A stretch of 64,000 bases of DNA from Collinsella phocaeensis (lineage in GTDB: Bacteria > Actinomycetota > Coriobacteriia > Coriobacteriales > Coriobacteriaceae), in contig NZ_FQLR01000004.1 in assembly GCF_900119895.1 (NCBI RefSeq), forward strand, positions 62,001-126,000. Reading direction: 5' to 3'. Both the position numbers and the translations under genes were made by a program. This document shows positions 29,015-50,396 of this stretch, one piece after another. Below the pieces are notes generated by a model. The model had not been told where the DNA came from, made no database searches, and worked only from the letters and a program-made list of their open reading frames with translations. Positions within the stretch are counted from its first letter, which is position 1. Every line of letters begins with the position of its first letter.

Positions 29015-29090
29015 GCGTTGCGCGGATGGGCAAGTCCCCAGCGGGGTTAAAAGTGGGTTGGTAAACTATGCGTCGCGGTGAGGGTGGCAC

Positions 29091-29253
29091 GAAACCGCGT
29101 CGAGTCGGTATCGCAGAGGGTCTGTAAAACGCGTGTATACGCGAGGATCGGCGTGTTTGCCCTCCAGATGCCCGGAATCGTCTCGAAAAACAAGGGTTTC
29201 ATATATAGAAACCCACTATATGGCGGATGCGGATACCGACTCGACGCGATTTC
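29091..29253. repeat. Palindrome-armed element 1 (22-bp inverted arms, ~119-base core)
   Basis: Left arm 29091-29112 and right arm 29232-29253 are inverted repeats matching at 21 of 22 positions (GAAACCGCGTCGAG... against ...CTCGACGCGATTTC). The core is AT-richer than the surroundings and contains GAGGGTCTGTAAAAC (29116-29130), the palindrome CGCGTGTATACGCG and a hairpin GGGTTTC/GAAACCC (29194-29214). The core resembles that of the element at 48543-48745 although the arms differ. It could be a MITE or an invertible segment. The overlapping reading frames show no ribosome binding site or coding character. Confidence 0.75.
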
Positions 29254-29586
29254 TGACCAGCTTGGCCGCATGCCGCGCCGGCAGTTGGGCAATCGGGGCG
29301 TCATGAGTCGGATTATGTGCAGGACAGTTGCAGGAATATGCATATCGACATCCGGTGCGGGGTCCTGCGCCGTGGATGGGCATCGCGCGCGACGGGTTTT
29401 GCGGAGCGGGCGCCTCTTGCGGTGGGGACGGCCTTCTTCGCGCGTGTCGGTTTGCAACGAGACCGACTCCCTCGCCCGCTCTCTGCGGTTTTGTCCGTTG
29501 CATGGCCGTACAGAAATGTAAGCTTGCCCTCATCGGGAATTCATCTCGGGACGGTATTCTCGACAGACCGTAGAAAAGGAGTCCTG
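29254..29586. other. Non-coding leader of the lipase gene
   Basis: About 330 bases with no credible gene. A frame open across it (29317 onward) joins the lipase frame but lacks a start signal; the real start has AAAAGGAG at its 3' end. No clear promoter hexamers or riboswitch are seen. Confidence 0.5.
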
Positions 29587-44048: not shown

Positions 44049-44060
44049 GTGTTCATGGCG

Positions 44061-44329
44061 GGCCGGAAGGGGTATGCCCCCTGCTCAGCTTCGCTTCGCT
44101 CAGAAATCGCAGGGGGCGTACCCCTTCCGGCCCGACACGACTCCCGCCGTGCGCCCGGCTGAGGAGGGGGTTGGTGCATCCGGCGTCCGCCGGATGCGGT
44201 TTTGGAGCGGGGCTCGGCTTCGCTTCGCTCAGAAATCGCAGGGAGCGTACCCCTTCCGGCCCGACACGACTCCCGCCGTGCGCCTGGCGGCAAGGGGAGG
44301 TTGGCGCATCCGGCGGGGCCGGATGCGGT
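44061..44329. repeat. Large palindrome plus 129-bp tandem duplication
   Basis: GGGCCGGAAGGGGTA... from about 44060 is inverted as ...TACCCCTTCCGGCCC ending near 44133, forming a stem of about 24 bp around a 27-base loop. A unit starting GCTTCGCTTCGCTCAGAAATC at 44088 repeats at 44217 (offset 129), including GACACGACTCCCGCCGTGCGCC and a GCATCCGGCG...CCGGATGCGG hairpin. The second unit lacks the left arm of the palindrome. Non-coding; fills the Nudix-ABC transporter gap. Confidence 0.85.
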
Positions 44330-47388: not shown

Positions 47389-48273
47389 ATGTCTAACGGA
47401 ATCACCAGCTCCGCACCCCTCTACCATCGCGAAGGGGGCTACATTCCGCGCGTCGCGGCCGTGCACGATATGTGCGGGTACGGCAAGTGCTCGCTGGGCG
47501 TAGCCATCCCCGTGCTCTCGGCTGCCGGGTGCGACGTCTGCCCGGTGCCGACCGCGCTGTTCAGCGCTCACACCAAGTTCCCCGTCTTCTACATGCACGA
47601 CACCACTTCGATGCTCAATGAGTATCTTGACGCCTGGAAACAGGAAGGCATCGAGCTCGACGGCGTGTACTCGGGCTTTTTGGGTTCCGCCGAGCAGGTC
47701 GCCGTCATCCAGCGCCTCTACGCCGAGTACCCTTCGGCCCTGCACATCGTCGACCCGGTGATGGGCGACGGCGGCGCGAAGTACCCCACCTATACCGATG
47801 AGATGTGCGGGGCTATGGCGGCTCTCGTCGACGGGGCGGACGTCCTCACCCCCAATCTCACCGAGGCCTCCATCCTGACGGGCATCCCGTATCGCGGTCA
47901 GGACGTGGATACCGCCTTCATCCAGCAGAACGTTGATGCCCTGCTCGCCATGGGCGCACGGTCCGTGGTCATCAAGGGCGTCGTGCACGAGGGCGAGGAT
48001 GTGATCCGCAACTACGTGGCGACGGCGGCCGAGCCCGCTGCGGCCGAGATCGCGAGCGAGCTTCTGCCCTACATGCTGCACGGCACGGGCGACCTGTTCG
48101 CGAGCGGCCTCACCGCGGCGATCTTCGCGGGCCGCTCGCTGGCGGAATCCGTGGAGTTCGCCGGCACGCTCGTGCGCGACGCGATGCGCATCACGCGCGA
48201 GCAGCCCGACTTCGAGGTGCGCGGCGTATCGTTCGAAACGGTCTTGGGCGAGGTGACGGAGCTGCTCAAGTAG
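47389..48273 (+). CDS. Pyridoxal/pyridoxamine kinase, PdxY-like
   Basis: 294-residue ribokinase-fold enzyme that phosphorylates pyridoxal-type vitamers to make or salvage pyridoxal 5'-phosphate. Visible: VAAVHDMCGYGKCSLGVAIP near residues 22-41, IVDPVMGDGGAKYPTYT (ATP and metal), LTPNLTEASILTG, and the catalytic HGTGDLFASGL near 227-237. Mobile-lid details do not decide between PdxY and PdxK. AAAGAAGGA lies upstream of the ATG. It is a single-gene unit between two hairpins. Confidence 0.93.
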   Translation: MSNGITSSAPLYHREGGYIPRVAAVHDMCGYGKCSLGVAIPVLSAAGCDVCPVPTALFSAHTKFPVFYMHDTTSMLNEYLDAWKQEGIELDGVYSGFLGSAEQVAVIQRLYAEYPSALHIVDPVMGDGGAKYPTYTDEMCGAMAALVDGADVLTPNLTEASILTGIPYRGQDVDTAFIQQNVDALLAMGARSVVIKGVVHEGEDVIRNYVATAAEPAAAEIASELLPYMLHGTGDLFASGLTAAIFAGRSLAESVEFAGTLVRDAMRITREQPDFEVRGVSFETVLGEVTELLK

Positions 48274-48427
48274 CTCCTGCGCTGGGGATCCCTTCGGCCG
48301 GTGTGCCCATGGTTCGATTGGTGGAATGGCTGTGTTCCCGGTAGGGGACGACGTTCCCTCGGTTGGCGATTTACAGAGCGGCTACGTCCCCGGTTGGAAA
48401 TCGGCGGGACGCGGTCGATAGGCTTGG

Positions 48428-48462
48428 GAACCCCGGTCAAGGCTTCGCCTTGACCGGGGTTC
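48428..48462. terminator. Perfect 16-bp hairpin after the pyridoxal kinase gene
   Basis: GAACCCCGGTCAAGGC, loop TTC, GCCTTGACCGGGGTTC. It lies about 155 bases after the stop with only a weak T-rich tail (TCTCTGTC), so it may end transcription or be a dispersed palindrome. Confidence 0.65.
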
Positions 48463-48542
48463 TCTGTCACGGCTGCGTCGCGACGGGGGCAACGCGGACC
48501 GGTTATGCCGTAGTGGGGGTTGGTCAATTCGAAATAAAGAAC

Positions 48543-48745
48543 AACCCCCTGAGTTTTTGGACAAATCTGCCAGATAATGACGATGGCCTCGGACATGTTA
48601 GCGCAAAAGAGGGGTCTGTAAATAGAAAAGACGCTATACAGGGGCCATACGGAGACGTTTTGGGCAAGAGATGGCCCGGCATCATGAATAAGAAACCCTT
48701 GCATTCGTCATTTTCTGGCAGATTTGTCCAAGAACTCAGGGGGTT
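48543..48745. repeat. Palindrome-armed element 2 (41-bp inverted arms, ~121-base core)
   Basis: Left arm 48543-48583 (AACCCCCTGAGTTTTTGGAC...) and right arm 48705-48745 are inverted repeats matching at 39 of 41 positions. The core includes GAGGGGTCTGTAAATAG (48609-48625), TATACA, and a hairpin GGGCCAT/ATGGCCC. Outside the right arm, GAGGGTCTGTAAT recurs on the minus strand (about 48761-48773). It sits in AT-rich DNA upstream of carA. Small frames crossing it are artefacts of the palindrome. Candidate MITE or invertible segment; compare the element at 29091-29253. Confidence 0.82.
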
Positions 48746-48977
48746 TCTAAATATATTATAATTACAGACCCTCATTTTCAGCTATTTCTGGGGCACGGGC
48801 GCCGATCCGGGACACCGGCTCATGGGGTGGCAGGTGCCGTTTCGAATAAAACAACAAAAATACCTTTACAAGATGAATAAATCGAGTTTCAACTCTCAAA
48901 ACTGAAGGAATGCGCCTACAATACCGCACAGGCCATTGACCTTTAAGCCGGTACGGAGAGACCGAAAAGGAGAGAAC
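48746..48977 (+). promoter_or_regulatory. carA leader and probable promoter
   Basis: AT-rich leader containing TACAAT at 48917-48922 as a likely -10 box about 55 bases before the start. AGATGAATAAATCG (about 48871) resembles half of an arginine-repressor (ARG) box, but only a half site is seen. No pyrimidine attenuator with anti-terminator could be drawn. Confidence 0.4.
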
Positions 48978-50396
48978 ATGGGGCTGAAGAGCACCGCGGG
49001 CAACGCGTCCCGCAAGGCTGCTGCCAGCGATTTGGCGCAGCGCATCCTCGCATCGACAAGCAAAGGGAATAGGGGTCCGGCGATTCTCGCGCTGGAAGAC
49101 GGTACCGTCTTCTACGGGCGCGCGTGCGGCGCGTCGGGAACCGTCACGGGCGAGGCGTGCTTCAACACGTCGCTCGAGGGCTATTTCGAGGTCCTGACCG
49201 ACCCTAGCTATGCGGGACAGATCGTTACGATGACGTATCCGCAGATCGGCAACTACGGGATCGATTCCGCTGACGTCCAGAGCGCCTATCCGGGCGACGC
49301 CCGCCGCCCCGCCGCGTCGCCGGCGCTTCGCGCCCTCGTGGTGCACGACCTGTGCGCGACCCCGTCCAATTGGAGGTCGGCCCTGTCCGTTCCGGACTAT
49401 CTCGAGCAGCAGGGCGTCGTCTCGATCGAGGGCGTGGACACCCGCGCGCTCGTGCGGCACCTGCGCGACCACGGGGCCCAGAAGGCGATCGTTTCCACAG
49501 AGGTGTTCGACCTCGACGAGCTCGGGGCCCTTCTGGACAGAGCGCCGTCTTTGGTGGGGGAGAACCTCGTGCAGACGGTGAGCTGCTCGGTGCCCTATGC
49601 GTACGGTGCGGACGATGTGCCGGCATGCCGCGCCTTCGCCCGGACGCCCGCTACCCCCGCCCGCCATCGCGTCGTCGTGTACGACTGCGGAATCAAGCGG
49701 GGAATCCTCGAGGGGCTCGTCCATACCGGTTGCGAGCTCACGGTCGTGCCGTGGGACACTCGCGCCGCCGACGTGCTCGCCCTCGACCCCGACGGCGTCT
49801 TCCTCTCCAACGGCCCGGGCGACCCCGATGCGGTCGAGGGCACGTACACGCAGGTCGAGCAGCTTCTCGGCAAGGTGCCGGTGTTCGGCATCTGCCTGGG
49901 ACACCAGATGATCAGCCTCGCCGCGGGCGCTCGGATCGAAAAGCTGAAGTTCGGCCATCGCGGCGGCAACCAGCCCGTGATGAACCTTTTGACCGGGCGC
50001 GTGGAGATCACCGCGCAGAACCATGGCTTCGGCGTGGTGTTCCCGAGCCTCGGCACGCTTGTTCCGGAGCTCTCGGCCGGCATGTCCGAGCATCCCGCCG
50101 ACGGCGACCTGCGCACCTGGGTGCGCGCCGGCGTCGCGCCCGTCGTGCGCAACGAGCGGCTCGGGCGCATCCGCCTCACCCATGTCAACCTCAACGACGG
50201 GACCGCTGAGGGCATCCAGCTGCTCGACGCGCCCGCATTCAGCGTGCAGTACCACCCCGAGGCCTCGCCCGGCCCCACCGATTCGCACTATCTGTTCAGC
50301 GCGTTCTCGCGCCTCATGGACGGCGACGCGGACTACCTGAACATCGACATCGCCAAGGATCGCCTGGCGGGTTGGAATTTCGCCGAAGCCGAGTAA
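48978..50396 (+). CDS. carA: Carbamoyl-phosphate synthase small (glutaminase) subunit
   Basis: Hydrolyses glutamine and channels ammonia to CarB for carbamoyl phosphate, used in pyrimidine and arginine synthesis. At 472 residues it is longer than the usual 360-390 because of an N-terminal extension of about 35 residues and an insertion near 100-120. CarA domain: LEDGTVFYGRACG. Class I amidotransferase domain: nucleophile C306 in FGICLGHQM, and QYHPEASPGPTDS with the His-Glu pair. The start ATG 48978 has AAAGGAG; the frame is open from 48936. carB follows after a structured 154-base gap. Confidence 0.95.
   Translation: MGLKSTAGNASRKAAASDLAQRILASTSKGNRGPAILALEDGTVFYGRACGASGTVTGEACFNTSLEGYFEVLTDPSYAGQIVTMTYPQIGNYGIDSADVQSAYPGDARRPAASPALRALVVHDLCATPSNWRSALSVPDYLEQQGVVSIEGVDTRALVRHLRDHGAQKAIVSTEVFDLDELGALLDRAPSLVGENLVQTVSCSVPYAYGADDVPACRAFARTPATPARHRVVVYDCGIKRGILEGLVHTGCELTVVPWDTRAADVLALDPDGVFLSNGPGDPDAVEGTYTQVEQLLGKVPVFGICLGHQMISLAAGARIEKLKFGHRGGNQPVMNLLTGRVEITAQNHGFGVVFPSLGTLVPELSAGMSEHPADGDLRTWVRAGVAPVVRNERLGRIRLTHVNLNDGTAEGIQLLDAPAFSVQYHPEASPGPTDSHYLFSAFSRLMDGDADYLNIDIAKDRLAGWNFAEAE

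Follow-up and report, generated by a model that had tools for sequence, protein, structure and literature searches.

In Bacteroides, one invertase acts on invertible promoters at many loci, where common inverted arms, about 200 bp from each other, enclose different cores. Multi-site transposon ends, such as those of IS21, Tn7 and Mu, carry more than one binding site per end in a defined register, and the ends are synapsed; in IS21, direct repeats 23 bp apart bind IstA (PMC10122671). Prokaryotic MITEs, including the Correia elements, Chunjie and QMITE, are short, non-coding, intergenic and dispersed, with inverted ends and lengths near 200 bp, and some have ends better conserved than their interiors (PMC10969869, in which the word 'helical' does not occur). 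The IESs of Paramecium are transposon-derived, with unique, diverged interiors and weakly or well conserved ends, and show a 10-bp size periodicity, about one helical turn, that is explained by synapsis of the ends on a short loop; the same paper also treats the helical dependence of spacing between transposon ends, operators and recombination sites (PMC3464196). These elements belong to the ciliate germline, number 45,000, are mostly shorter than 150 bp and are excised by a domesticated piggyBac transposase (PMC3464196).

Here we describe a family of 20 elements in a Collinsella genome that resembles each of these systems in part. One member lies in a 64,000-nucleotide stretch of Collinsella phocaeensis DNA (the window, by which we mean the whole stretch analysed), where the initial annotation had described 41-bp near-perfect inverted arms around a 121-base core upstream of carA. 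That description was borne out: the arms (48543-48583 and 48705-48745) pair at 39 of 41 positions. The features of the element are as follows.

48513..48775, no strand: whole conserved unit with outer motifs, about 263 bp
48513..48524, plus strand: outer left motif, GGGGGT-type, lying some 29 bases beyond the arm (AGGGGGT at -28 in the family consensus)
48543..48583, plus strand: left arm, a type A half-site, with the AACCCCCT block, seven variable bases and the conserved block TGGACAAATCTGCCAGATAATGACGA
48566..48568, plus strand: left-arm positions 23-25, the sole arm stretch concerted between both arms of a locus
48584..48704, no strand: core of 121 bases; the 13 type A cores are on average at shuffled-DNA similarity
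48609..48624, plus strand: left-end inner motif (+66), GAGGGGTCTGTAAATA, containing TGTAAA
48685..48700, minus strand: right-end inner motif (+45), reading AAGGGTTTCTTATTCA on this strand
48705..48745, minus strand: right arm, an inverted copy of the left arm, identical at 39 of 41 positions
48720..48722, minus strand: right-arm positions 23-25, partner of the concerted left-arm stretch
48764..48775, minus strand: outer right motif, reading GAGGGTCTGT on this strand

The conserved unit outreaches the arms as first described by about 30 bp per side, with AGGGGGT at about -28, and a repeat search, which puts 121 nt between the arms, stretches the pair to 70 nt at 77%. From the outside inward, the arm-aligned copies share AGGGGGT at about -28, T- or A-rich DNA, AACCCCCT at positions 0-7, a variable stretch at 8-14 and a block at 15-40; an AGGGGGT-like inner motif usually lies at +45 of one end and at +66 of the other. 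The window element is flanked by a pyridoxamine-kinase-like gene (47389-48273) and by carA, which starts near 48978. Ahead of it, at 48428-48462, stands a hairpin whose 16-base arms are perfect and which probably terminates the upstream gene. Scanned with 26-base arms (at least 22 paired), the entire window holds three pairs, and the window element pairs at 25/26. When DNA of relatives was shuffled in 5-mer blocks and scanned with 22-base arms (at least 19 paired), no pairs appeared in about 480 kb of genome G048, 200 kb of G005 and 196 kb of G020. Because shuffled DNA gave none, the arm pair is not a product of chance, and the window element is real and non-random.

With the element as query, the 2.1-Mb genome that contains the window (four contigs) yielded 42 pieces at about 15 places, and a profile (R1) built from an alignment (A1) of 26 half-sites recovered 38 half-sites at E up to 0.01. 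These, with the right partners of copies L020 and L144, taken from sequence, make up 20 paired elements: 13 of type A, including the window element, with the block TGGACAAATCTGCCAGATAATGACGA, and seven of type B (L020, L022 and L140-L144), with TGGACAAATATGGCAAATATATAAGTC or similar. The weakest is L144, with 17.1 bits (E 0.006) for its left half and no ACCCCC block in its right half. Arm types are never mixed within a locus (13 A/A, 7 B/B), and none of the half-sites detected in the assembly is unpaired. The initial annotation had proposed searching the genome for further copies; the search thus finds 20 paired copies and not one alone. They are spread over three of the four contigs (C1, C2 and C3) and contain no coding region, and all 20 are intergenic by a heuristic GC3-based gene call, some short ORFs of which are doubtful. 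The same caller places them between tandem (10), convergent (7) and divergent (3) genes. Their neighbours are housekeeping genes by NCBIfam name (carA, pth, ispD/ispF, guaA, purC, tgt, coaX and an L-lactate dehydrogenase gene; the purC and pyridoxamine kinase matches fall under their curated cut-offs), and neither function nor orientation is common to the copies.

The ends of these elements are conserved and the cores are unrelated. Between type A loci, half-site identity is 86% at positions 0-7, 52% at 8-14, 90% at 15-40 and 33% at 41-59, the inner flank, and both arms are intact in all 13 copies. The type A cores, compared in the same orientation by gapped alignment, have a mean identity of 0.605, versus 0.600 for shuffled sequence; in the core alignment, three 224-bp copies have a centre like GCATCATTTGTACGTTAAC in common. 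Element lengths are nevertheless ordered. Measured between the GG of one arm and the CC of its partner, type A copies fall at 171-172 bp (n=7), 181-183 bp (n=3) and 192 bp (n=3), giving a phase concentration of R = 0.94 at 10.5 bp, a value that none of 20,000 random sets drawn over that range attained. With periods from 8 to 13 bp scanned, the best is 10.3 bp, a result equalled in 0 of 3000 random sets (p < 1/3000). Type B spans, at 179-181 bp (n=3) and 189-191 bp (n=4), are more weakly phased (R=0.86; p=0.006 at 10.5 bp, p = 0.22 with the period scanned). The steps equal one helical turn, which points to a protein that keeps both ends on one face of the duplex and not to an RNA hairpin. Because cores without similarity should also have gained indels, the whole-turn spans suggest a constraint on length, though shared descent could keep lengths alike.

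Random-similarity type A cores, helix-stepped lengths and conserved multi-motif ends of about 70-90 bp are features in which the family departs from prokaryotic MITEs, as is the fact that neither a target duplication nor a partner transposase was found in the searches below. It differs from the IESs of Paramecium in being bacterial, in having 20 copies and in its longer and far better conserved ends. The IS21 arrangement of direct repeats is replaced by the motif order AGGGGGT, inverted ACCCCCT, long block, AGGGGGT, and none of the genome's three rve hits is an IstA-sized transposase. The Bacteroides switches are matched in the many loci, in the inverted arms that these have in common at a spacing of about 200 bp and in the differing cores; they are not matched in that no invertase was found, no surface or capsule genes lie near, the orientation is mixed and polarity is mostly kept.

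Evidence that the family has spread comes from three type B copies on three contigs (L022, L141 and L142), which are 86-90% alike end to end, while their flanks are 63-72% alike by gapped alignment, near the shuffled level. Likeness in the core with unlikeness in the flanks means that copies were made in new places. Full-length relatedness is seen in these three, and the type A cores compare as shuffled DNA does. Multiple dispersed, non-coding, paired copies with terminal inverted repeats are what is expected of MITEs. Target-site duplications of MITEs may vanish with age; here, no 3-7-base k-mer at a shared offset rose above shuffled pairing. As for an autonomous partner, no half-site bounds a longer element anywhere in the assembly, and every one pairs at about 200 bp. 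A partial survey of the genome detected IS3, IS30 and IS256 elements and one fragment (the three rve hits being the IS3, the IS30 and the fragment), and the terminal repeats of the IS3 and IS30 elements, the two that were compared, differ from the family ends. The IS256 copy adjoins L018. The fragment, a transposase C-terminus (G000:C1:288230-288370, L155), lies about 3.4 kb from copy L011 and is presumably of the IS3 OrfB type. The family arms, with CCCC and then TTGGACA, recall what we take to be IS3-type ends. We rejected that identification: the terminal TG is at the expected place in few arms only, and the IS3 of this genome has other terminal repeats.

We favour, with a probability of roughly 0.55, a lineage-private, non-coding, MITE-like element derived from a transposon, with two inverted multi-site ends under a helical-phase or synapsis constraint. 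We infer that a protein and a synapsis are involved and that the family spread by transposition. One protein would recognise conserved sites that the two ends have in common and would join the ends on a single helical face, so that the intervening DNA, roughly 170-190 bp, would be bent into a small loop. Such synapsis would let only whole-turn differences in length survive while the core drifts freely. The likeliest protein would be a transposase that acts, or once acted, in trans, and the elements would hence be transposon-derived and dispersed.

By carA, the closest named relatives of the genome are Collinsella, which places it in that genus or very near. The family is absent from the relatives sampled. 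Profile R1 had no matches in 42 other genomes of the genus, and in the family (65 genomes) none of the 64 others held a pair; apart from the genome of the window (G000), there were three single weak half-matches (G207, G208 and G217), that in G217 without a partner arm. No profile match was found at 80 carA loci of relatives. The ispD-ispF spacer, about 640 bp with copy L019 in this genome, is about 200 bp and element-free in relative G020. At L061, the sole relative with a short tandem pdxK-carA arrangement, the spacer is about 170 bp (estimated from hit ends) versus about 700 bp here, a weak comparison in that most of the 17 relatives with both genes have them in divergent order. The initial annotation had suggested looking for empty sites in sister strains; among the relatives sampled, the ispD-ispF spacer of G020 and the carA loci lack the element, and the spacers are too diverged to give an empty site resolved to the base. 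A second profile (R2) run over 395 genomes of the order, scoring 14 candidates per genome and so weak as a negative, matched G207 and G208 at one place at a near-chance level. This place was rejected as a family member; it holds a paired-arm element of other sequence. Phages gave three weak 29-base hits only (E 0.9), plasmids gave none and viral contigs had no match to the arm pattern. The literature covered, which did not extend to subscription papers, held nothing relevant on Collinsella with invertible promoters, PhaseFinder, MITEs, or intergenic or palindromic repeats.

Conserved ends around randomised cores are odd for fossil insertions, because neutral copies should decay evenly; either many separate lineages were long active or the ends have been maintained in place. 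The main rival to the transposon-derived element takes the second course, with a DNA-binding protein such as a domesticated transposase or a regulator pairing two inverted operators into a small loop at about 20 intergenic sites and thereby insulating or regulating the neighbours; the copies may have come by transposition and now be kept for function. Retention of both arms in 13 of 13 type A copies despite randomised cores, strict helical phasing, arm types that never mix (13 A/A and 7 B/B) and the position of all copies between genes, by the heuristic call, speak for such looping. We still think it improbable, though a serious contender, given that the same profile matches 0 of 42 other genus genomes, that the neighbours have no common function or orientation and that no candidate protein was identified. 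A bolder proposal, which we consider doubtful, extends the IES size rule of Paramecium to bacteria: in a transposon-derived family, selection would have kept two multi-site ends and their helical register until the interior was randomised, and a protein would still pair these ends at about 20 intergenic sites, in a functioning system of DNA loops or of recombination that only this lineage has. The initial annotation had offered a MITE or an invertible promoter segment, and the former half has fared better, with 20 intergenic paired copies, the spread of type B and the element-free spacer in G020. Phase-variable promoters whose arms are recombination sites and whose cores flip under one recombinase are unlikely. 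Positions 23-25 would suit them: arms of the same type A locus agree there in 35 of 39 cells, versus a shuffled mean of 26.0 (0 of 2000 shuffles as high), while positions 8-14 show no such concert. Helical phasing also suits a recombination synapse, and inversion of Correia elements is reported in the MITE review (PMC10969869). Against these points, the 23-25 triplets are partly shared between type A loci (L014, L019 and L021 have one non-consensus triplet in common), three loci (L012, L013 and L017) are not fully matched and the two arms of type B copies often differ, as judged by eye on the alignment. The concert at 23-25 could reflect strand exchange or a matched contact in mid-arm.

Nor does the genome offer an obvious enzyme for flipping. 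Serine recombinases (PF00239) gave no hits in the 98.8% complete assembly, with controls positive in 10 of 14 genomes. Of five tyrosine recombinase hits (PF00589), four above the Pfam cut-off, none adjoins the window element and none could be recognised as a dedicated invertase; one is an integrase about 1.4 kb from L020, two others lie in apparent mobile regions, and two we take to be XerC and XerD by sequence and context. The type of the outer end goes with that of the inner motif in 10 of 13 copies, with 3 exceptions (sign test about 0.05), and since frequent flipping of the core would shuffle the two, this is mild evidence against inversion. The inconsistent downstream genes and mixed gene order speak against a promoter switch. 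The promoter-like words TATACA and TGTAAA noted at first are there, but a scan of 48250-49000 returned one weak site (9/12) against 0.5 expected, and the core of the window copy, the only one scanned, has no outward promoter beyond chance. Least probable by a wide measure is a transcribed, structured RNA whose arms form a long hairpin with compensated sequence changes, which the initial annotation had named as the outcome that would overturn its proposals. The window strand does fold far better than its shuffles (z = -10.4), as does any perfect inverted repeat. Conservation of base pairing in a transcript is rejected because variable arm positions fail to keep left-right identity: at positions 8-14, arms of a locus agree in 43 of 91 cells versus 47.6 shuffled, and over the entire arm in 444 of 533 versus 443.0, no more than chance in either case. 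The spans step with the DNA helix, and Rfam is without a match, its two hits (E 0.57 and 3.4, both to one animal microRNA model) being far under the cut-off of that model.

If the synapsis reading of the transposon-derived element holds, its copies amount to a natural helical-twist experiment in a bacterial genome, with surviving lengths that show that the ends must meet on one face. Phased lengths together with drifting cores would be a sequence signature that separates maintained paired-end systems from dead repeats, and a short inverted repeat that resembles a promoter switch can be something else. Were the function in place true, the family would be a lineage-private chromosomal looping system.

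Other repeats were seen in the window. A 77-base direct repeat (96%) with 129-base spacing at 44083-44288 lies just upstream of an ABC-transporter-like gene, beside a 32-base inverted arm at 44053-44084, and an inverted repeat at 29075-29269 has 38-base arms (79%) with 119 bases between.

Paired inverted arms are common across the sampled stretches of Collinsella that we scanned, none with the arms of the window element: G005 has 10 arm pairs in 200 kb and G020 has 4 in 196 kb, and shuffled DNA has none. Other lineages (G048 and G005) have private paired-arm sets of their own. G048 has a 166-bp family (TTTTGACAGAAACGGGCAATTTGGCA; one end has a second, tandem site) of at least 19 copies, present in 1 of 43 genus genomes and found in the sampled stretches at L199:8993-9158, L200:16234-16399, L206, L207, L209, L215, L216 and L217; a second family of about 171 bp with other arms and a similar centre, CTGCAGGTAGATGA; and a third of about 150 bp with AGTGTACG-type arms. 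Rfam gave nothing credible on the G048 elements. The ispD-ispF spacer of G005 (L254; L290:10743-10870) holds a paired-arm element of its own, with arms TGAGGTTTTTCGTATCGT. Short elements with spans of 105-134, whose perfect or near-perfect arms have a different sequence at each locus, occur at L190:13827-14263 and L191:10332-10458 (G039), at L283, L284 and L289 (G005) and at L255 (G054); in L190, L191 and L255, which were read whole, the arms enclose ACATTCCGCA, a hairpin and GAGGACGT. These locus-specific elements resemble RNA hairpins or terminators in which changes in one arm are compensated in the other. In a neighbouring genus, L158:1392-1571 (G207) carries 28-base inverted arms, CTCTGCGCAAAAAT...GCTGACCT, at one locus per genome, and the orthologous places in G202, G203, G204 and G208 make this one place in five genomes.
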